A DNA stretch of 64,000 nucleotides from Dehalogenimonas sp. W (GTDB lineage Bacteria > Chloroflexota > Dehalococcoidia > Dehalococcoidales > Dehalococcoidaceae). A program made the translations under genes and the position numbers. The stretch lies in the NCBI RefSeq assembly GCF_037094495.1, contig NZ_CP146612.1, forward strand, positions 744,001 through 808,000, read 5' to 3'. A model generated the notes under the pieces. The model saw nothing but the letters and a program-made list of their open reading frames with translations, did no database searches and was not told where the DNA came from. The stretch's first letter is position 1. Every line of letters begins with the position of its first letter. Shown in pieces: positions 14,343 through 25,190 of this stretch.

Positions 14343-14867
14343 TCAGCTTATAAATAGTTCATTTAGCATTCGAACCGTGGTATAGATGACCAGCCGAGCT
14401 TCCTCAGGGTCTATTTTCTCTCGCCGATGAACGCCAATGTCACCGTAGCCTTTTATAGACGTGGCTAGGGCATAAATCTTCGCGCCAAGAAGGCCGGAAC
14501 TTGTCGCTTCTTCCAGCATTTTTCCTAGAGGCTTGTCCTCAATACCTTTATCTATAAGCGAAAGCTGTAAAGCCCTACGACACATGGCAACGCAAGCTTT
14601 ATAGCATTGGGAATAATTCGCTCTTTCTGCTTCTTCTATGTCCTCTTTAATATCGGCAGGGACTGAAGAATTGAGAAACTTAGATTGGGTGCCCGGTAGC
14701 GCTAAATCCAAACTTTGAATAAAGCCCTTATGCATTGTAATCGGTATTTCATGTTGGCACTCGAGGCAACGAATTATGCCGTGCAATTCTACATTTGTTT
14801 TGCACTCGATGTTAATCTGGTTGGAACTCTTCTTGCCGTAGCATTCTGGGCAGACTAATTGGGCCAT
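14343..14867 (-). CDS. Zinc-ribbon/DUF4145 domain protein
   Basis: 174 residues. The N-terminus has CPEC and CLEC pairs about 28 residues apart, a zinc ribbon. From about residue 75 a helical DUF4145-type domain follows, with YSQCYKACVAMCRRALQLSL and the conserved YGDIGVHRR. DUF4145 is often found in phage- and restriction-associated proteins, including fusions with nucleases, and its function is unsettled. Here it stands alone next to an integrase fragment. Confidence 0.75.
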   Translation of the reverse strand: MAQLVCPECYGKKSSNQINIECKTNVELHGIIRCLECQHEIPITMHKGFIQSLDLALPGTQSKFLNSSVPADIKEDIEEAERANYSQCYKACVAMCRRALQLSLIDKGIEDKPLGKMLEEATSSGLLGAKIYALATSIKGYGDIGVHRREKIDPEEARLVIYTTVRMLNELFIS

Positions 14868-15029
14868 CCTTACGACCTCCTTTCGCTTGAAGAAAAAATT
14901 ATATCACATTGTTTATCTAGGTCTTCTTCGGAGAAGTCAAAGAATATTATTTGCCGCTGCTGTCGGGTCGGGCAGGAGTCCGGGTTTGGTTCTCGGTATC
15001 GTCCCTTCAAGCCCACCATTGATTTAGGT

Positions 15030-15350
15030 TCAGCCTGTTCACAAAAGTTTGTGAACAATTTACTGGAAAAGTTCATTGCCTCTCGTCCTGACGATTGTAG
15101 CCCGAGAACTATTGAGTTCTATCGGTTTACCCTTAGCAAGTATGTGGGCTATCCTCTAAGTCCCGAAGGTGTTAATGCCTATCTGAAATCTCTCACTTGT
15201 GTTAATGGCAAAGCTAGATACTACCAAGCTCTCAAAACACTCCTTTTATGGCTATATAGCAATGAGATTACTCATGAGAAGATCATCGACAAAGTACCTC
15301 CGCCTAAGATTCAAAAGAAGCTACTACCCGCAATATCCGGCCTCCGATAA
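15030..15350 (+). pseudogene. Tyrosine recombinase fragment (N-terminal core-binding domain only)
   Basis: The frame encodes a typical SAM-like DNA-binding domain: FVNNLLEKFIASR, then SPRTIEFYRFTLSKYVG and KARYYQALKTLLLWLYSNEIT. It stops just after the linker KIQKKLLPAIS, where the catalytic domain should begin. No Arg-His-Arg-Tyr domain follows, so this is a 3'-truncated integrase. No good start codon is visible; the frame runs up into the divergent DUF4145 gene. The tyrosine recombinase at 20006 has the opposite defect, lacking this domain, but the two do not join obviously. Confidence 0.7.
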
Positions 15351-17238: not shown

Positions 17239-18867
17239 TCAATTGAGATATGACACCAAGAAATGTTGGAGCACCGGGATCAATTCCTTCTTGTCGAATA
17301 AGAGTTCGGGGACAGTCCCCCACGGCCCACCAAAGGTAACCATAGGCAGAACTGATACTTCCTCCTTTCCCCCGGATACCGGGATCGGCAAATTATAATA
17401 AATCGTTGCTGTTTCCTTGCCGACCTCGATCCTTTTTATGAACGAACGCAAGAAAGCTTTGCTTTCGGCAAAATCGGCCTCATCCAGCAACGTCTTTAAC
17501 TCCTCAGCGAAAGCCTTGATTTTTACGGCATCAACATGGGTCACCCCTTGGGCAATGTCTTCAACTTCCACCACTAGTCTTCGCTTGCTCAGTTCTTCCT
17601 GCCGTTGACGCAATTCCCTGATCCGTGGAGCCAAGTCGTCAAGGCTCACTTTGCCTGTCTCCAGCGCTTCATACAGTTTGGACAGCCTGTTCTTGATCTC
17701 TTTTAATTCCACGTCAATCTGGACGAGTTGTTCTTTCAAGTTGCCGTGGTTTGAATCAAGATCTTCATTGACCAATTTCACCAGATCTTCTAACCAATCG
17801 TTGTTCAGGATTCGGCTTTTAACCTGATCGATGACTGCCTTTTCGAAGCGGTCTTTGGCTAGAGCCCGGGCGCTACAGGCTTCACTTCCCCTCTTGTTCC
17901 CTTGATTGCACATGTAATAGTAGTACTGGTGGGATTTAGCGCTCCTGCCGGTCATGGCATGACCGCAGGTGCAGAACAGAAAGCCGCTTAGAAGGTAGAA
18001 ACTCGGCACAGTGCGCGGATGGATAATGGTTGGTTTTTTGGCACTCATCCGATTTTGAAGCTCAATAAAAGCTTCCTTACTGACAATTGCCGGTATCGCA
18101 CTTTCTATTCTGACGCTATCGCTCTCTCTGCCCCGATGTCCACCCCAAACAAGGGTGCCACAATAGGCCTCGTTAGTCAGTATTTTATAGACGGTGGTTT
18201 TACCCCATAGCTGCCCGGTCGAAGTCTTTATCCCCTCACGATTCAGGGTTTTGGCAATTTCTTTGCTACCGATGTCTGTAAATGCCAGCTCAAAAATGCG
18301 GCGTATCGCACGCATGGATTGGCTTTCTTCGGCATCCGGTTCGAGCTTATACCGGGTTTTAGCTCCGTCCTGAACCGGCACTTTATGAAGGCCATAAGGC
18401 GGGTGGCTACCGTTATAGAAACCACGCTGGGTGTTTTCTTTTAAGCCCCGTTTAATGTCCTGAGCGAGGCTGGCGCTGAAAAATGAATCCATGGTTTCGA
18501 TTACGCCTTCCAGAAGCTGACCAGACGGGCTGTCATCAAGTGGCTCATTGATCGAGATGACTTTGATGCCCCTACTCTTGAGTAGCGCCTTGTAGGTGAT
18601 TGAGTCGAGTCTGTTTCGAGAAAACCTATTTAGCTTCCAAACTAGTACCACCTCAAAAGGTGGTTTGACAGATTTGGCCATGCCAATCATTCTTAAAAAT
18701 TCTGGCCGGTCGGCGGTGCGGCCGCTCTCTGCTTCATCAACAAATTCCCGGACGATTTCATGCCCCTGCCTGGCAGCATAATCCCTTAGCGCCCGAAGTT
18801 GGGCTCCTATTGATAGATCAACGTCCTGAGAATCGCTCGAAACTCGGCAATAGATAACGACTTTCAT
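17239..18867 (-). CDS. Large serine recombinase
   Basis: 542 residues. The N-terminal resolvase domain has the catalytic serine in YCRVSSDSQ (Ser10) and the conserved LDSITYKALLKSRGI and SPSGQLLEGVIETMDSFF. A recombinase domain, a zinc ribbon (CTCGHAMTG with later Cys pairs) and a long coiled coil follow. Such enzymes insert and excise islands between attachment sites. The start at 18867 follows AGGAGG; an upstream in-frame Met overlaps the preceding gene. The 3' end (GGTAAC, ATAGGCAGAACT at 17335-17353) resembles repeats found elsewhere in the window. It is probably co-transcribed with the HTH gene upstream. Confidence 0.93.
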   Translation of the reverse strand: MKVVIYCRVSSDSQDVDLSIGAQLRALRDYAARQGHEIVREFVDEAESGRTADRPEFLRMIGMAKSVKPPFEVVLVWKLNRFSRNRLDSITYKALLKSRGIKVISINEPLDDSPSGQLLEGVIETMDSFFSASLAQDIKRGLKENTQRGFYNGSHPPYGLHKVPVQDGAKTRYKLEPDAEESQSMRAIRRIFELAFTDIGSKEIAKTLNREGIKTSTGQLWGKTTVYKILTNEAYCGTLVWGGHRGRESDSVRIESAIPAIVSKEAFIELQNRMSAKKPTIIHPRTVPSFYLLSGFLFCTCGHAMTGRSAKSHQYYYYMCNQGNKRGSEACSARALAKDRFEKAVIDQVKSRILNNDWLEDLVKLVNEDLDSNHGNLKEQLVQIDVELKEIKNRLSKLYEALETGKVSLDDLAPRIRELRQRQEELSKRRLVVEVEDIAQGVTHVDAVKIKAFAEELKTLLDEADFAESKAFLRSFIKRIEVGKETATIYYNLPIPVSGGKEEVSVLPMVTFGGPWGTVPELLFDKKELIPVLQHFLVSYLN

Positions 18868-18875
18868 CTTTCCTC

Positions 18876-19688
18876 CTAAATCGGGCAATAATCACAACGC
18901 CCTGGCAAAACACGCCGTAGCGTGATCGCCCACAAATCTTCGGCCAGATTTTTCTCAACCCGCTTCAGTTCGGAATGAGCTTTTTCCAACTCCAGATATT
19001 CGGGCCATTGCCGAACGCGCTTTTGCCACTTCTTAAGCATCAACCGCATGATAGGTATTTCGGTCGAGTCCATCTCGCCCATGCGGCTAAAACCCACCCC
19101 ATAATTAACAAAACCCAGCTTGCTGGAACGTTCCTGAATCTCGTTTAAGTCCAGATCGAGTCCATGATACCCTTGAGCCCACTGCTCGGTTTGATGTTTA
19201 AAAAAGGCATCAACACCGCTCATTATCGCTGGGACTCGGTTACCGAATGGCCGCAGTTGCGGGTCAGATTTAAGTCCGGCAATTCTCTTCTCAATCCGAT
19301 CATTGATATCGTTGATAGTCTTTTGGATGCCATCGAGTTTGGATAGATTTTCCCAGATGGGCGATCGTGGCAGGTGTTTCCGGAGAGCGATTTTGATGTG
19401 CTCTTCCTTGGGAGATAGATATTTGTCTTTAACCGGGGACTGCGGATTGAGTTTTTCAGCTACGGCGCACATATCTTGATAGTGGCTCTCGACCGCATCG
19501 CGCAGAACCGAACGCCGCATTTCTTTGGCTTCGATTTCCTGCCTGGCATGTTCAAGATGGACTTCCACTGTACGCTTGTCATAGCCATCTTTGTCGGCTA
19601 TCTGTGCCGCAGATTCTCCCTGTTGGTTACGACGTAGCCAATCTTGGTCCTGTTCCGGGGTTACCGCCGGCTTTTTGATGCGTTTCAA
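18876..19688 (-). CDS. HTH protein paired with the serine recombinase
   Basis: 270 residues that I do not recognise as a named family. Near the N-terminus QDWLRRNQQGESAAQIADKD and GYDKRTVEVHLEHARQE look like a sigma/LuxR-type helix-turn-helix. The rest is helical and rich in charged residues, and the C-terminus ends GRCDYCPI with a Cys pair. Its stop codon lies inside the ribosome-binding region of the recombinase gene, so the two are coupled. A recombination directionality factor or a regulator of the recombinase is possible, but that is inferred from position only. Confidence 0.62.
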   Translation of the reverse strand: MKRIKKPAVTPEQDQDWLRRNQQGESAAQIADKDGYDKRTVEVHLEHARQEIEAKEMRRSVLRDAVESHYQDMCAVAEKLNPQSPVKDKYLSPKEEHIKIALRKHLPRSPIWENLSKLDGIQKTINDINDRIEKRIAGLKSDPQLRPFGNRVPAIMSGVDAFFKHQTEQWAQGYHGLDLDLNEIQERSSKLGFVNYGVGFSRMGEMDSTEIPIMRLMLKKWQKRVRQWPEYLELEKAHSELKRVEKNLAEDLWAITLRRVLPGRCDYCPI

Positions 19689-19848: not shown

Positions 19849-20031
19849 ATGTCAAGAACCCAAGGGCCACAGACCCCAACCGATGCCAAGGTTATTTTGG
19901 CCAGCATCATCGCCAAGGCTATCAGGCGAGAATGGGCTGCGACAACTAGTACTGTGCCTCTGGCTCAATCTGAAAACGATCCCCTAGAAGCTACTGAAAA
20001 TCGGTGTGAAAATGACCAAAGCATATCTTGA
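19849..20031 (+). CDS. Small hypothetical protein upstream of the tyrosine recombinase
   Basis: 60 codons starting at ATG 19849 and overlapping the recombinase start by 26 bases. The peptide (MSRTQGPQTPTDAKVILASI...) has a short helical stretch, AKVILASIIAKAIRREW, and no recognisable domain. There is no convincing ribosome-binding site. The overlap suggests a leader peptide coupled to the recombinase. The intergenic region 19689-19848 before it holds two copies of ATAGGTGC (near 19740 and 19782) and the divergent promoters, not resolved further. Confidence 0.35.
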   Translation: MSRTQGPQTPTDAKVILASIIAKAIRREWAATTSTVPLAQSENDPLEATENRCENDQSIS

Positions 20032-20716
20032 ACTCGGAGAGGTCAGCCAATTGATCGAAGCCGCCACTAACCTGCGTGACCGGCTTCTACTAACGCTACT
20101 CTTTCACTTGGGCTGCCGGATCAGCGAGGCTTTGTCCATTAGCACCGATGATATCGACCTTATCAACGGGATCGTAACCATCAAGCACCTTAAGAGCCGA
20201 ATCAAATTGAAATGCCCGAAATGCCAGGCAGCACTCGGGCTGAAGTCGGTATATTGCCCAAAGTGCGGCGAAAAAATCGAATCGGCGATCAAGGATCTAA
20301 AAGACTTCCGCAAACAGCGGGTTCTGCCTGTTGATGAAGAATTACTCGCCCTCATAAGTGAATATATCACCCGGGGCGGTCCGGTTAACCGTAACGGAAA
20401 AAGAATGCTATTCGGCATCAACCGGCACCGCGCCTGGCAGATCGTTAAGACTCTTGGCGAACAAGCCGGATTACCGCACATCGTCAACACCGAAACCGGC
20501 AAGGTACATAATGTCAGCCCTCACAAGCTCCGGGATGCTTTCGCCGTACATGCCGTGAAACACAATGATTCCGGGGACGGCCTCCGCATGCTCCAGGAGC
20601 ATTTAGGCCATCAGAGCTTCAATACCACAGCCAAATACCGCAAGGTGGCCGGCGAAGAGCATCGGAAGTGGTACGACGATCTCTGGAAGAGCGATGGTAA
20701 TTCAGCTAAGACCTAA
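20006..20716 (+). CDS. Tyrosine recombinase catalytic domain with inserted zinc ribbon
   Basis: 236 residues. The catalytic set is complete: Arg in LGCRISEAL, Lys in the KDFRKQRVLP strand region, HKLR, the His in LQEHLGHQSF and the Tyr in TTAKYRKV. Between the Arg and the Lys strand a four-cysteine zinc ribbon is inserted (CPKC and CPKC about 17 residues apart). The usual N-terminal core-binding domain is missing; the protein begins at the catalytic domain, so another subunit or the zinc ribbon may supply DNA contacts. It lies near the serine recombinase in the same island, in divergent orientation. Confidence 0.88.
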   Translation: MKMTKAYLELGEVSQLIEAATNLRDRLLLTLLFHLGCRISEALSISTDDIDLINGIVTIKHLKSRIKLKCPKCQAALGLKSVYCPKCGEKIESAIKDLKDFRKQRVLPVDEELLALISEYITRGGPVNRNGKRMLFGINRHRAWQIVKTLGEQAGLPHIVNTETGKVHNVSPHKLRDAFAVHAVKHNDSGDGLRMLQEHLGHQSFNTTAKYRKVAGEEHRKWYDDLWKSDGNSAKT

Positions 20717-21200
20717 GAAGGGTGGTTTCCTCCGGCCTTTCGGCTGCGGCTGGTTCATTAGAGAGTTCCTGTTAGGAAACGCGCCTTACGGATCGCCTAC
20801 CGTCAACCCGATCGTCGGAGCTCCGCAGGCGGAGATATTCCATAGTTATAAGATCGCCATAATCAACGAAACGGCGATGGATCGGGCGGTGAGAATGGCG
20901 GAGAAAGTGGCGAAGAAACAAGACCAACGCTTTTCACCGGATCGGGTCGATGACCTGCTTAAAAAGATCACTCCAAGTATCCCCTATAAGACCACTGCCT
21001 GCCGCTATCATTCGTTTGTAGTTTACTTCTCAATGCTCAAAAGACTTGGCTGGGTAGAACCGTCAAGCCACACAGAGCGGTCGGCTTTTCAGGATAACTA
21101 CCCTCAAGGTCCGGCACGGAAATACTATCGGTTGACACGGGTAGGGCTCGGGGCTGGAGACAGCGCCTGGGCGAATCCGCAGAAAGCCGAGAGGGGCTGA
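20694..21200 (+). CDS. Winged-helix-like hypothetical protein of the island
   Basis: 168 codons, overlapping the recombinase by 23 bases. From about residue 62 the sequence is coherent: AMDRAVRMAEKVAKKQ, then helices ending in CRYHSFVVYFSMLKRLGWVEPS and a wing-like PARKYYRLTRVGL. That pattern suggests a winged-helix DNA-binding fold. The first 60 residues look less like a protein, so the true start may be the Met near 20877. I cannot name a family. Position between recombinase and sigma-like genes suggests a role in the mobile element. Confidence 0.55.
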   Translation: MVIQLRPKKGGFLRPFGCGWFIREFLLGNAPYGSPTVNPIVGAPQAEIFHSYKIAIINETAMDRAVRMAEKVAKKQDQRFSPDRVDDLLKKITPSIPYKTTACRYHSFVVYFSMLKRLGWVEPSSHTERSAFQDNYPQGPARKYYRLTRVGLGAGDSAWANPQKAERG

Positions 21201-21635
21201 GCCAGTCGTCTCCTGAAACGAACAGCATCCGGCATTAATGGAATAGGCGGCGCAGTTTAAGTAAGCACCGCCGAACTGCCCAAACGGCCGACCATCAGGC
21301 CACCAAAGGCCGAAAGAGCCCCCAAAGGCGCCAAAAAGGTATTCCGGTATCCCCGCCGTTTGATTGCACAATTCACCTGGCCAATATCGGATTGTATTGT
21401 GGCAATTGGCGGTGAAACGCACTAAAAGGCCAATTCAGGCGCCATCCGGTGAGGAAAGAGCCCGAATTGTGTGATTAAGCCTTATCCGAAGCTAACCGAT
21501 TTTTCTAATCCGCCATCGTGGATACGGGCATTGTTGTAAATAAAGGTTCATTTTGTAGCTGAACATAAGCGAAGATTGTTGGATGATGGGTGCTGGACTC
21601 TACCAGCACCTTAACAACTAAATTGCTATAAATCA
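21201..21635. other. Noncoding stretch of the island
   Basis: No convincing gene. The middle (about 21255-21330) is rich in GCC/CCR repeats and opens several overlapping frames on both strands, none with a ribosome-binding site and start. A structured RNA or a recombination site is possible; I see no known motif. Confidence 0.4.
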
Positions 21636-21654
21636 CTCACCTGAACGCTTGCCC
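21636..21654. repeat. 19-bp inverted repeat, left arm
   Basis: CTCACCTGAACGCTTGCCC is the exact reverse complement of 22356-22374. The two arms bracket the sigma-like gene. A related TGAACGCTTGAAC occurs at about 23643. Confidence 0.85.
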
Positions 21655-21670
21655 CCTCTTTGAAAGGGGG
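21652..21670 (+). promoter_or_regulatory. Hairpin that can mask the sigma-like gene's ribosome-binding site
   Basis: CCCCCT (21652-21657) pairs with AGGGGG (21665-21670), and the outer TTG/CAA can extend the stem. The right arm is the purine-rich ribosome-binding site, 11 bases before the ATG at 21682. Translation of this gene may therefore be conditional. Confidence 0.5.
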
Positions 21671-21681
21671 TAGCAAACTAC

Positions 21682-22200
21682 ATGAAAGCACCTTCAGGAT
21701 GTTCCGACGATCACAACAACCTTCCACTATCCTACAACCGCCTAACCGGAGACTGGCTTCTATATTATGCCGTCGCCAAACGCTTTGAATGGAAAATCCC
21801 GCCGCAAGACAAAGCGGACGTCCGGCACAGCATAATGATGGAGCTGGCAGACGCCCAGAACCGCAAGGGCGGCCTTCCCTTACCCGAAGCGGCAATGTAC
21901 CGTATCGCCAGTTTCGAGGTGGCTGATTATTGGCGCAAGAAGAAACGGCAACCCGACCTTATCAGCCTCGACGAAGAGACCGCCGACAATGACACCGGCC
22001 TTGCCACAGTTCTACCCGATGATTCTGCCCTCGACCTCGATGCCTGGGTGGATGCCCGGACTTTCCTTTTGTCCTGTCCCAAGCGCCTAATCCAAATAGC
22101 CTTCAAAAAAGTGAACGGCATAACCCTCGAAAACGCCGAATATAAGTACATGAGCAAGTGGCGCAAACGTGAACAAAAAAAATTAGTGTTTTGTGGGTAA
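21682..22200 (+). CDS. Sigma-70-like / HTH protein of the mobile element
   Basis: 172 residues. The centre, KADVRHSIMMELADAQNRKGG then AAMYRIASFEVADYWRKKKRQPDLISLDEE, has the shape of sigma region 2 (a helix ending in a Trp-Arg-Lys-rich DNA contact, then an ISLDEE linker). The C-terminus, CPKRLIQIAFKKVNGITLENAEYKYMSKWRKRE, could be a weak region 4. It may thus be an element-encoded sigma factor or a phage-style late activator. It sits between 19-bp inverted repeats and upstream of the clamp-like gene. Confidence 0.6.
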   Translation: MKAPSGCSDDHNNLPLSYNRLTGDWLLYYAVAKRFEWKIPPQDKADVRHSIMMELADAQNRKGGLPLPEAAMYRIASFEVADYWRKKKRQPDLISLDEETADNDTGLATVLPDDSALDLDAWVDARTFLLSCPKRLIQIAFKKVNGITLENAEYKYMSKWRKREQKKLVFCG

Positions 22201-22355
22201 GGTTTTCACCCCTTTCAGCGGTTATATAAGTAGAAGCATTTAATTAGGCCAGCGAACGGCGGCTAGTTAAGGGCTTACTACTTTGCGAAGCCGATGGAGT
22301 TGCCCACTATCGGATAGCTAAAAGGGGGGAATACTATCGAACAACTTAATATCGA

Positions 22356-22374
22356 GGGCAAGCGTTCAGGTGAG
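22356..22374. repeat. 19-bp inverted repeat, right arm
   Basis: GGGCAAGCGTTCAGGTGAG is the exact reverse complement of 21636-21654. It falls within the possible extended 5' coding region of the clamp-like gene. The gap 22201-22434 otherwise contains a purine-rich AAAGGGGGG at 22321-22329. Confidence 0.85.
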
Positions 22375-22434
22375 GGTTTTATCGCACAGCGTCAAAGCCT
22401 TATAAGCGCCCTGAATAGAGCCTTAGCCGACAAG

Positions 22435-23634
22435 GTGAGCCTTATGGGCTTCACTTTAGGCCGCAAGGGCTTCCTTAGCTATCTTAGAGCCTTGGGCGGG
22501 AGCAACATCATCAAGATTGTCCCGTCAACCAGTGACGCCAGCGAATCGCGGGTCAGTGGTAAGTGCTTAAAGGTAGTCTGCGGCGCAAATCAGGCATACC
22601 TTACCAACAACGAATGGACCGGAGACAAGACGACTTCCGGCTACTGCGAGCTTAAGGTCAATCCGAGGTACTCGATTATCCCTAACCTCGGTGCTTTGGA
22701 GATGTCCGAGGCACTGGAGCGGGTACTTACTTTCACCTCAAGCCAAAGCTCGCGGCCAGTCCTTCAAGGCGTCTGCCTTAAGGCGGCAAACGGCAAGCTC
22801 GACCTTATATCCGCCGACGGCTATCGCCTCGCCATCGCCACACTCGACTTCAACGGCGAAGGGACAGCGGTTATCCATCGGGACGAGCTACGGGGTATCG
22901 CCCAGGCGCTTAAACGTGCCAGGCGGGTGCGCCTCGCCTTTGAAACGGACGAGGCAGCCAAGCGAACTTACCTTATCCTCGAAACGGAGCTTATCCGTTA
23001 CCGATGGTCTGGAATGTCCGGCGACTATCCCGATCCTAAGCCGCTCATCCCAACCGCCTTCAAAACGTCGGTAAGCCTCGAAGCTACGGAAACGCTACGG
23101 GCTATCGCCAGTCTCAAAGTGCTGACCGATGTTAAAGGCTGTCCGGTAGACCTGTCCATCGGTGATGGTAAGGTCATTATGTCGGCAACCGACGACAAAG
23201 GCGTGACGGAGCTATCCGCCGAAACTTCCGGTGAACCAATACGGGTAAGGTTTGACGGCGGCTATTTTACCGACGCCTTGAAAGCCTGCGGCGGCATGGT
23301 GGAACTCAATATCACTGAGCCGCACTTGCCGACGCTCTTCAAGGCCGACGGCTTTCAACTTGTTGTCATGCCGATGGCGGTTGGTAAGCCGCAACCGAAG
23401 CCCGAAGCCTCGAAAGCGGTAGCGGCTAAGGCGGCGGAAGCGGTCAAGCCGGAAGCACCGAAAGAGGCGGAGACGAAGGCGCCAGAACCAGTTAAGGCAG
23501 AAACGCCGAAAGAACCGGAAGCCAAGCCGGATAAGGAAGCTGAAGCGGCTATAGCAGAGGCCAAAGCAATCACCGAGAAACCCAAGATGCCCAAGATTGC
23601 TAAAAAGATCGCCCGCGAAGCTGTCGCGGTTTAA
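22435..23634 (+). CDS. Sliding-clamp (DnaN/beta clamp)-like protein with Lys/Ala/Pro/Glu-rich tail
   Basis: 399 residues from the GTG. The middle has the beta-clamp domain pattern SRPVLQGVCLKAANGKLDLI followed by SADGYRLAIATL, then YPDPKPLIP. The C-terminal clamp domain ends with the hallmark FKADGFQLVVMPM (compare MPMR in DnaN). The first clamp domain is not recognisable. After residue 320 comes a low-complexity tail of A, K, P and E repeats with a basic end. A mobile-element clamp could recruit the host polymerase or mark the replicating element. The frame stays open upstream to a GGGGGG site at 22324, with only ATC (22336) as a possible start. Confidence 0.78.
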   Translation: MSLMGFTLGRKGFLSYLRALGGSNIIKIVPSTSDASESRVSGKCLKVVCGANQAYLTNNEWTGDKTTSGYCELKVNPRYSIIPNLGALEMSEALERVLTFTSSQSSRPVLQGVCLKAANGKLDLISADGYRLAIATLDFNGEGTAVIHRDELRGIAQALKRARRVRLAFETDEAAKRTYLILETELIRYRWSGMSGDYPDPKPLIPTAFKTSVSLEATETLRAIASLKVLTDVKGCPVDLSIGDGKVIMSATDDKGVTELSAETSGEPIRVRFDGGYFTDALKACGGMVELNITEPHLPTLFKADGFQLVVMPMAVGKPQPKPEASKAVAAKAAEAVKPEAPKEAETKAPEPVKAETPKEPEAKPDKEAEAAIAEAKAITEKPKMPKIAKKIAREAVAV

Positions 23635-23813: not shown

Positions 23814-24227
23814 ATGAGGCAGGAATCATGCCAGGAACGGCTTAATTCGGAACTTCAGGATCGGCTGAAGGATATACGGACGCTTTGGCGGTTGTCTCAA
23901 AGAAATCCCGAGGTAACGCATCAGGAGTTAGGCAAGTTCGAGGAATACGGCTTAAGTTTCGACTATGTCGCCAAGGGCACTTTCCAAGACCAAAAGCGGG
24001 GGTATTTCCGCTGGCAATTATCTTGGGGCGGCCCCGCTGATGAGTTCCGCATTTACACGGATGAAAATCTCGACGCCGTTAATATCGAGTACTGGTTTCT
24101 GGATTGGAACGACGGAGCCAGTAAGAGGTTATCAGGGGGAGCCTTCAAACTACTCGATGAAATCTTCCAGTATTTCAAAGAGTTAGGCCTCGTGGAGGCC
24201 GAACGTTCCAAATCTTTAAGCTATTAG
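23814..24227 (+). CDS. Conserved hypothetical protein of the island
   Basis: 137 residues from the ATG at 23814, ten bases after a GGAG motif in GAAGGAGACAATAACG. An in-frame extension upstream to 23730 runs through the terminator and is not used. The protein is acidic and aromatic-rich, with LSFDYVAKGTFQ, KRGYFRWQLSWGGPADEFRIY and EYWFLDWNDGA. I recall similar small proteins as conserved unknowns on plasmids and islands, but no function. It has no signal peptide, membrane helix or cysteine cluster. Confidence 0.72.
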   Translation: MRQESCQERLNSELQDRLKDIRTLWRLSQRNPEVTHQELGKFEEYGLSFDYVAKGTFQDQKRGYFRWQLSWGGPADEFRIYTDENLDAVNIEYWFLDWNDGASKRLSGGAFKLLDEIFQYFKELGLVEAERSKSLSY

Positions 24228-24252
24228 CTCTCAAACTACTTTGAGGATTCTT

Positions 24253-24290
24253 AAAGGGGATTTCCCGAAATCGGGAAGTCCCCTTTTTTA
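24253..24290 (+). terminator. Intrinsic terminator
   Basis: AAAGGGGATTTCCCGA and its complement TCGGGAAGTCCCCTTT form a long stem with one mismatch, followed by T-rich sequence. Confidence 0.85.
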
Positions 24291-24348
24291 TTGTCTCCAT
24301 GCCGATGAAAAACCATCGTTTTTTAGACTCGAATGTTATAATTACATC

Positions 24349-24828
24349 ATGGTTAAATCATTACTACTTAAACGTGAAAAAGCGTTGATCCACGAATGGA
24401 TTACCAGGTTCATGGATTTCTCCGACATTATAGCCTATGCTTCGGGTTCAGATGTAGCTCCGAGTGAACAGGATCAAAACAAATACTCCGGGTTTCGTCA
24501 CTGGTTCATCCAAAATGAAGCCGCATTTCTTCCACTTTGGTGGAAGTACCTTGAGGGCAAGAACCTGGAATCTGGTGGCACCACGGGCAATGATTTCGAT
24601 TCAGATGGTGAAGAATCAGCCGCTTTTATCAATAATCCATTCGGCAATTACTACCACCCCAAAACCCTGGTGCAGACTTTCGTCCACTTAGGTTTACAAA
24701 AGCCCAACGTGAGTTGGGAGTCATGCGACGACCGGGCCGGAGACATGAGGACCGTTCTCATCGGCGTTTTGGGAATTGCTGTCGAGTTTTATCAGTGGGC
24801 GCTTGGGATGACGCGACCAGTAGACTAG
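24349..24828 (+). CDS. Hypothetical protein, probably from a leaderless mRNA
   Basis: 159 residues from the ATG at 24349. A longer frame from 24241 runs through the terminator and is rejected. A perfect TATAAT with a TG extension lies at 24337-24342, six bases before the ATG, so transcript and coding region should start together. The protein has no signal peptide. Visible features are an early basic helix (KSLLLKREKALIHEWITRF), aromatic HWFIQNEAAFLPLWWKYLEG and a C-terminal helix GVLGIAVEFYQWALGM. I do not recognise the family. Confidence 0.65.
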   Translation: MVKSLLLKREKALIHEWITRFMDFSDIIAYASGSDVAPSEQDQNKYSGFRHWFIQNEAAFLPLWWKYLEGKNLESGGTTGNDFDSDGEESAAFINNPFGNYYHPKTLVQTFVHLGLQKPNVSWESCDDRAGDMRTVLIGVLGIAVEFYQWALGMTRPVD

Positions 24829-24929: not shown

Positions 24930-25190
24930 AGGAGAGTCGGACTCTATCTAAATCGCAGGCTGGGATCTGGTCTTTTCTGGATATAACAACCGAGGGGCTT
25001 CATCAGCCCCTCGGTCAGTTTCGCAGAGAGCCACCCCAGGGTCTCCCGTGTTTCGGAGCGAGTTCGACGTCACGAGGAGGACTAAGACGGAAAGCCCTTG
25101 TTACAACCAAGGGACTTCCTCAGCCCCTCGGTAATTCTCGTAGAAACCCACTCCAGGATAAGTCGTGTTTCAGACCTAAATAAACTAGCG
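24930..25190. repeat. Dispersed intergenic repeat (family B), two units
   Basis: It contains GAGTCGGACTC (about 24933), a perfect hairpin CCGAGGGGCT/AGCCCCTCGG (24990-25014), then a second related unit with AGCCCCTCGG (about 25115) and a GTGTTTCAG end (about 25170). The same blocks recur at about 29489, 30111, 30575 and 42680. It lies before the CDGSH gene; no ORF in it looks real. Confidence 0.65.

Follow-up and report, generated by a model that had tools for sequence, protein, structure and literature searches.

A mobile-element sliding clamp of Dehalococcoidia with a conserved non-ATG start codon and a covarying RNA leader

The DNA analysed here (the window) is a 64-kb stretch, positions 744001-808000, of the complete 1.77-Mb genome of Dehalogenimonas sp. 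W. It contains a compact integrative element that runs from 17239 to about 24950 and carries a gene for a sliding clamp of the DnaN family. On the reverse strand, the left part of the element encodes a large serine recombinase of 549 aa (17239..18888), the probable element integrase, which matches PF00239, PF07508, PF13408 and PHROG integrases (4.6e-114). Next to it is an HTH-containing protein of 270 aa (18876..19688), whose conservation in compact elements is seen from synteny. The remaining genes lie on the forward strand. The first encodes a Xer/integrase-like tyrosine recombinase (20006..20716; PF00589, 1.4e-21, zinc-ribbon matches and synteny), whose catalytic half contains an inserted zinc ribbon. 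It is followed by a wHTH-like protein, conserved by synteny (MVIQLRPKKGGFLRPFGCGWFIRE...; 20694..21200), and by a sigma-factor-like protein of 172 aa (21682..22200), assigned from a weak PHROG sigma match and synteny. The sigma-like gene is immediately 5' of the clamp gene in the intact copies compared. The clamp gene itself (22336..23634, forward strand) encodes 432 aa and begins with ATC, as judged from start-codon, fold and family evidence. On its 3' side are genes for a small conserved protein of unknown function (phrog_36747; 23814..24227; PHROG and synteny) and for a protein (24241..24828) that the locus comparison found only in the compact element of genome G027. Element limits were set by where similarity between copies ends; similarity to one relative (L038) stops at 24952, which we take as the right limit.

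Compact elements of about 7 kb occur also in genomes G027, G030 and G032 and on contigs L158, L160 and L162, with the order serine recombinase, HTH, zinc-ribbon tyrosine recombinase, wHTH, sigma-like, clamp and small genes. The first-pass annotation had described an integrative module with sigma-like and zinc-ribbon recombinase genes next to the clamp, and the domain matches confirm it. It had also proposed that this gene set may define a new element family. A search for the order recombinase/wHTH/sigma-like/clamp recovered it in many genomes, far beyond what chance would give, and it does define a Dehalococcoidia element family. No recognisable replication initiator or polymerase is encoded by the compact element in the window. 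PADLOC returned no match, and a defence-system reading was rejected. Flanking genes are not syntenic within the genus, so no empty site was found. To the left of the compact element, an ORF at 14859-15350 has no Pfam match; its resemblance, by eye, is to a tyrosine integrase in the N-terminal core-binding part only, and it is perhaps a remnant of another island.

Clamps of the same family are found in larger, virus-like elements of about 33 kb, exemplified by one in the same Dehalogenimonas sp. W genome, G000:C1 at about 824600-857400 (L004 16600 to L057 9312), whose relatives occupy several loci in related genomes. The zinc-ribbon tyrosine recombinase sits mid-element in both element types, each of which also has a serine recombinase. 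Beyond the serine recombinase, the 33-kb elements have genes for a Gp3-like recombination directionality factor (RDF), an AAA+ ATPase whose PHROG matches are clamp-loader-like, a DUF3854 primase-like protein and a protein with a DnaJ domain. Subtilase and ArdC-like genes are present as well, together with a series of small proteins, Met-rich membrane or beta-rich in type, of structural appearance. The claim that the sliding clamp is element-encoded is thus borne out by its mobile-element context in two recurrent architectures. Three DnaN proteins are encoded in the Dehalogenimonas sp. W genome: a standard chromosomal dnaN product of 376 aa at 135 kb, the window clamp, and a third at 827 kb that belongs to a second element. 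The window gene is therefore not the cell's only dnaN; being the only one was what the first-pass annotation had named as fatal to its proposal.

Among 156 genomes of the order, a sharp gap in identity separates full-length relatives of the window clamp (at least 47%) from chromosomal DnaN (at most 34%), and by this measure the element clamps constitute a separate family. The largest number of clamp matches per genome is about 13, in the 2.6-Mb assembly G146; this count includes fragments and one chromosomal copy, and the assembly has many contigs. By comparison, G027 holds one compact copy and the chromosomal dnaN only. Distant members occur throughout the class, and the named relatives are Dehalococcoidia and other Chloroflexota assemblies. 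At a strict cutoff, 400 genomes drawn from the phylum gave no member outside the host's family. A single-sequence search of IMG/VR found no relative, whereas an alignment search found seven contigs with relatives. In the genomes sampled here, the clamp family appears only in mobile elements of Dehalococcoidia and in related Chloroflexota assemblies.

The structure of the clamp was examined by modelling. An initial run with 26 relatives and the tail included gave a poor model (mean pLDDT 58.8), whereas a core alignment of 32 relatives, distant ones among them, gave a good AlphaFold2 model with a pLDDT of 89.3 and a pTM of 0.79. VIA-align superposes the core model, across all three domains, on a mycobacterial clamp (Z 27.7; 4.1 A over 313 residues) and matches it to the E. 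coli clamp with Z of about 27 (model residues 12-349 versus chain 0-366). Domain I spans residues ~12-118, domain II ~119-240 and domain III ~241-347; the disordered tail is at 348-432. The protein is thus modelled as a complete three-domain DnaN with an extra N-terminal strand. A non-clamp fold, which would have counted against the original proposal, did not emerge from the comparison with DnaN, and the statement that only two clamp domains are recognisable is superseded; a two-domain clamp was rejected by the alignment across all three. Sequence models alone match domains II and III only, and the ORF as first reported (22435-23634) matches a phage processivity-factor family and, in Pfam, beta_2 and beta_3. 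Domain I escaped notice through its divergence and its position partly beyond that ORF.

The motifs ADGYRLA, YPD...LIP and VVMPM are retained, as in host DnaN; the conserved residues common to both are D161, G162, R164, L165, P232, I238, P239, V343, M345, P346 and M347. These motifs form what we take, from the E. coli clamp, to be the site at which polymerase peptides bind. VVMPM is followed, as originally noted, by a Lys/Ala/Pro/Glu-rich tail (23377..23631, forward strand), but its length is 85 residues rather than about 70; it is predicted to be disordered (pLDDT <50). Tails of complete relatives span 25-89 residues, and most end in a conserved basic segment, KPKMPKIAKKIAREAVAV in the window.

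The coding region of the clamp extends further upstream than first called. From the GTG at 22435, the frame stays open for 33 more codons in the 5' direction, back to the ATC at 22336..22338. This codon is preceded by AAGGGGGG and lies 6 nt past the Shine-Dalgarno stretch AAAAGGGGGG (22320-22329). A start-codon survey of 46 distinct members found ATA in 15, ATC in 10, GTG and TTG in 7 each, ACG in 6 and CTG in 1; ATG was found in 0, and every codon used is one base away from ATG. At this position, valine is always encoded by GTG, threonine always by ACG, leucine only by TTG or CTG and isoleucine only by ATA or ATC. The invariable use of GTG and ACG is unlike a normal internal codon. Substitutions in codons 15-33 fall mostly at third positions (9674 versus 4240 and 3762 at the other two), and dN/dS for codons 2-34 is 0.04-0.14 across four compact copies, indicating strong purifying selection; the value for the clamp is 0.13-0.25. 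Residues 2-11 form a well-predicted strand in the folded-protein model. The start-codon pattern, the codon constraint and the N-terminal strand together place the start at ATC 22336. A start at GTG 22435 was rejected from the start-codon pattern, the third-position changes and the dN/dS of the upstream codons, and the ORF 22435-23634 is a truncated version of a 432-aa gene at 22336-23634.

One caveat is that in two relatives, L020 and L081, an in-frame ATG immediately follows the Shine-Dalgarno stretch, two codons ahead of the proposed start. This ATG sits too close to the Shine-Dalgarno sequence for its use to be favoured. A shorter clamp product may also be made from an internal start. In larger elements, a 63-aa ORF lies between the sigma-like gene and the clamp (G000:827964-828155, at the L004/L005 junction, and relatives); it overlaps the clamp start, is broken in compact copies, and is possibly a leader peptide. 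An overlapping leader ORF was rejected as the cause of the constrained codons because the window, L037 and L013 do not keep its frame intact. The clamp family thus has a conserved near-cognate start behind a strong Shine-Dalgarno sequence. In S. aureus, conserved AUA/AUU starts behind strong or extended Shine-Dalgarno sequences were shown to limit initiation (PMC13009471). The non-ATG start, together with the folded RNA leader described below, suggests that clamp production is tightly limited.

The 109 bases ahead of the start codon (22227..22335, forward strand) are conserved beyond what the protein can explain. They constitute a structured RNA leader with a two-part hairpin arm, a hairpin with a TTGCCC loop and the Shine-Dalgarno stretch, supported by covariation and by a covariance-model score of 99.8 bits. 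In the consensus fold of 31 distinct sequences, 95.4% of the cells are paired, and 21 of the 35 pairs have changed on both sides; these covariation counts, like those for the 15-nt motif below, refer to sequences, not independent events. None of 500 shuffles reached the observed pairing, and slid partners were 26-54% paired. A search of 22150-22520 against Rfam returned no relevant match even at E up to 10, only chance matches. Across the order, strong covariance-model matches sit with the element module or at contig ends, the exceptions being broken, clamp-less copies (L153 and L194) and weak partial matches. Of the two broken copies, L194 9800-10800 (G032 at ~442 kb) is a compact remnant that retains the sigma-like gene and the leader; a clean deletion just past the Shine-Dalgarno sequence has removed the clamp and most of the gene that follows it.

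The covariance model also detects one of the leader hairpins (CCAGC...GCGG, including a bulged A) a second time, inside the clamp ORF (22528..22561, forward strand). This copy lies ~290 bases downstream, has a short loop and is present in nearly every member. It codes for the disordered domain I loop, residues 64-76, within which residues 67-71 have low pLDDT in the core model. The TTGCCC loop of the leader can pair with GGGCAA in codons 7-9, enclosing the Shine-Dalgarno sequence and the start codon, and 99.5% of the cells are paired. These pairs are nearly invariant, which makes covariation uninformative, and we treat the pseudoknot between leader and coding region as a hypothesis.

Clamp codons 7-12 coincide with a 15-nt motif, GGGCAAGCGTTCAGG (22356..22370, forward strand). 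An inverted copy of GGGCAAGCGTTCAGG lies to the left, in the leader of the sigma-like gene (21640..21654, reverse strand); in the sense RNA, the two copies are complementary. The motif is nearly limited to these elements, and the reversed control gave 0 matches in 156 genomes. In divergent members, compensatory changes and G-U pairs preserve the complementarity of the two copies, with 301 of 315 cells paired, a level reached by 0 of 2000 shuffles. G-U pairs number 25 in the sense orientation versus 3 in the antisense orientation. An invertible cassette formed by the two copies was rejected, as the orientation is the same in all elements examined. A short direct repeat, AACAACTnAAT, lies beside the motif at both ends of the sigma segment (21590-21655 and 22336-22370). 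In L187 near 1501 (G092:C208), sequence left of the sigma-like gene appears joined directly to clamp codon 3-4 and the sigma-like segment is missing, which fits recombination between AACAAcTGAATA direct repeats. In L153 1500-3108 (G083:C52), the clamp ORF is broken exactly after GGGCAAGCGTTCAGG by foreign DNA that carries a further large serine recombinase, as though this enzyme had used the motif for insertion.

Our studies lead us to lean, by a modest degree, towards a role for the protein as an element-dedicated processivity clamp that uses the host polymerase and whose output is tightly limited at translation. From the computed fold, pocket motifs, purifying selection, occurrence in two element types, non-ATG start and covarying leader, we infer clamp loading, partner binding, a role in copy number and a function for the tail. 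After excision, the host clamp loader would place the ring on element DNA, where it would tether host Pol III or repair proteins. The element could then copy itself without competing for the few host clamps. Clamp output would be kept low at translation, the near-cognate start giving inefficient initiation, and the folded leader would set the timing through its TTGCCC loop versus the sigma-gene leader, both of which can pair with the codon 7-12 stretch. The tail would act as a flexible tether, its basic end binding DNA or a partner from the element. The primase-like, RDF-like and AAA+ clamp-loader-like genes of the 33-kb elements count in favour of a replication role. Counting against it is the compact form, whose independent replication is open to doubt from its gene content, as it has no initiator or polymerase and G027 holds a compact copy only. 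More tentatively, and with the balance somewhat against it, the leader might represent a new class of cis-regulatory RNA: a switch at a strictly non-AUG start, with two bulged-A hairpins and two competing partners for codons 7-12, that meters the clamp and element replication in Dehalococcoidia.

The same lack of replication genes in compact elements, in which a serine and a tyrosine recombinase always accompany the clamp, would suit a clamp that mainly tethers element recombinases or host repair proteins at excision or insertion instead of supporting processive replication. The disordered tail with its conserved end is also consistent with such a recombination or repair platform. However, the larger elements do have replication-like genes, and the pocket motifs are those that polymerases use, making this explanation unlikely. 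Whether the leader and the 15-nt motif act as RNA was considered separately. They could instead be DNA sites for regulator binding or recombination, given that the two motif copies are inverted repeats around the sigma-like gene and that the motif in L153 is precisely where a different serine-recombinase element lies. The compensatory hairpin changes and the sense-strand G-U bias are, however, expected of RNA and not of a site in duplex DNA, and the uniform orientation argues against an invertible cassette; we judge DNA sites to be quite unlikely.

The first-pass annotation had suggested that the clamp could hijack the host replisome or exclude competing elements. It would do so by competing with host DnaN for Pol III, mixing into dimers of the latter or occupying the loader, thereby blocking the host or rivals. 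Retained pocket motifs, several element copies per genome and weak start codons, which would suit a protein harmful to the host when abundant, are compatible with this idea. Nevertheless, there is no lost pocket, truncation, fused toxin domain or defence-family match, and copies coexist, four each in G030 and G032, which speaks against exclusion between relatives. Positive evidence for hijack or exclusion is lacking, the partner motifs fit ordinary host polymerase use equally well, and we regard the proposal as decidedly improbable. That the gene is a decaying host dnaN paralogue taken up by an island, with no element role, has next to no likelihood: breakage or deletion has affected some copies (L153, L194), but the low dN/dS already contradicts decay, frames are intact in nearly all complete copies, and the RNA leader and gene order are shared.

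If the preferred reading of an element-dedicated, translationally limited clamp is correct, integrative elements in organohalide-respiring bacteria supply a processivity clamp of their own and meter it by translation. It would offer a handle on mobile-element copying in hosts whose better-known ssrA islands appear without replication genes (PMC3146451). Family-wide avoidance of ATG, together with the covarying leader, constitutes a natural experiment on near-cognate initiation. Where annotation accepts no starts other than ATG, GTG and TTG, such clamps will tend to be called too short and their first domain to be missed.

The element clamp shares with chromosomal DnaN the three-domain fold and the motifs DG.RLA, FPxY/YPDY...IP and VVMPM. 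It differs in its 27% identity, which extends over domains II and III only, and in its extra N-terminal strand, disordered tail, non-ATG start, RNA leader and mobile-element location. DnaN proteins of phages and plasmids (PHROG 947; Thermus phages Lalka8/27; plasmid dnaN) are likewise mobile-element clamps of the same fold, but identity is below 30% in all matches listed, short of a close relationship. In IncI-alpha and IncB plasmids, the replication genes repZ/repA are controlled by a pseudoknot. Like the clamp leader, those systems place in front of a replication gene a hairpin whose loop complements a sequence farther downstream, close to the ribosome site, and a short leader ORF is shared with some clamp members. 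In the clamp, by contrast, the downstream strand is inside the coding region, at codons 7-9, instead of upstream of the ribosome site, and the leader ORF is broken in the window.

The ssrA genomic islands of Dehalococcoides and Dehalogenimonas (McMurdie 2011, PMC3146451; PMC13390414) come from the same bacterial class, are integrative and carry site-specific recombinases. Unlike them, the present element shows no ssrA insertion, as the 64-kb window contains neither a tmRNA nor a tRNA gene, and the clamp terms searched for in the two papers occur in neither. The literature searched, mostly without subscription papers, which leaves absence unproven, contained no description of the clamp family, its non-ATG start or its leader. 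The S. aureus AUA/AUU starts (PMC13009471) and infC resemble the clamp in combining a strong Shine-Dalgarno sequence with a near-cognate start that lowers initiation; they differ in that the present cases are mobile-element clamps with six near-cognate codons and a covarying leader. Clamps on phages and plasmids are already known, and it is the conserved translational control that is new.
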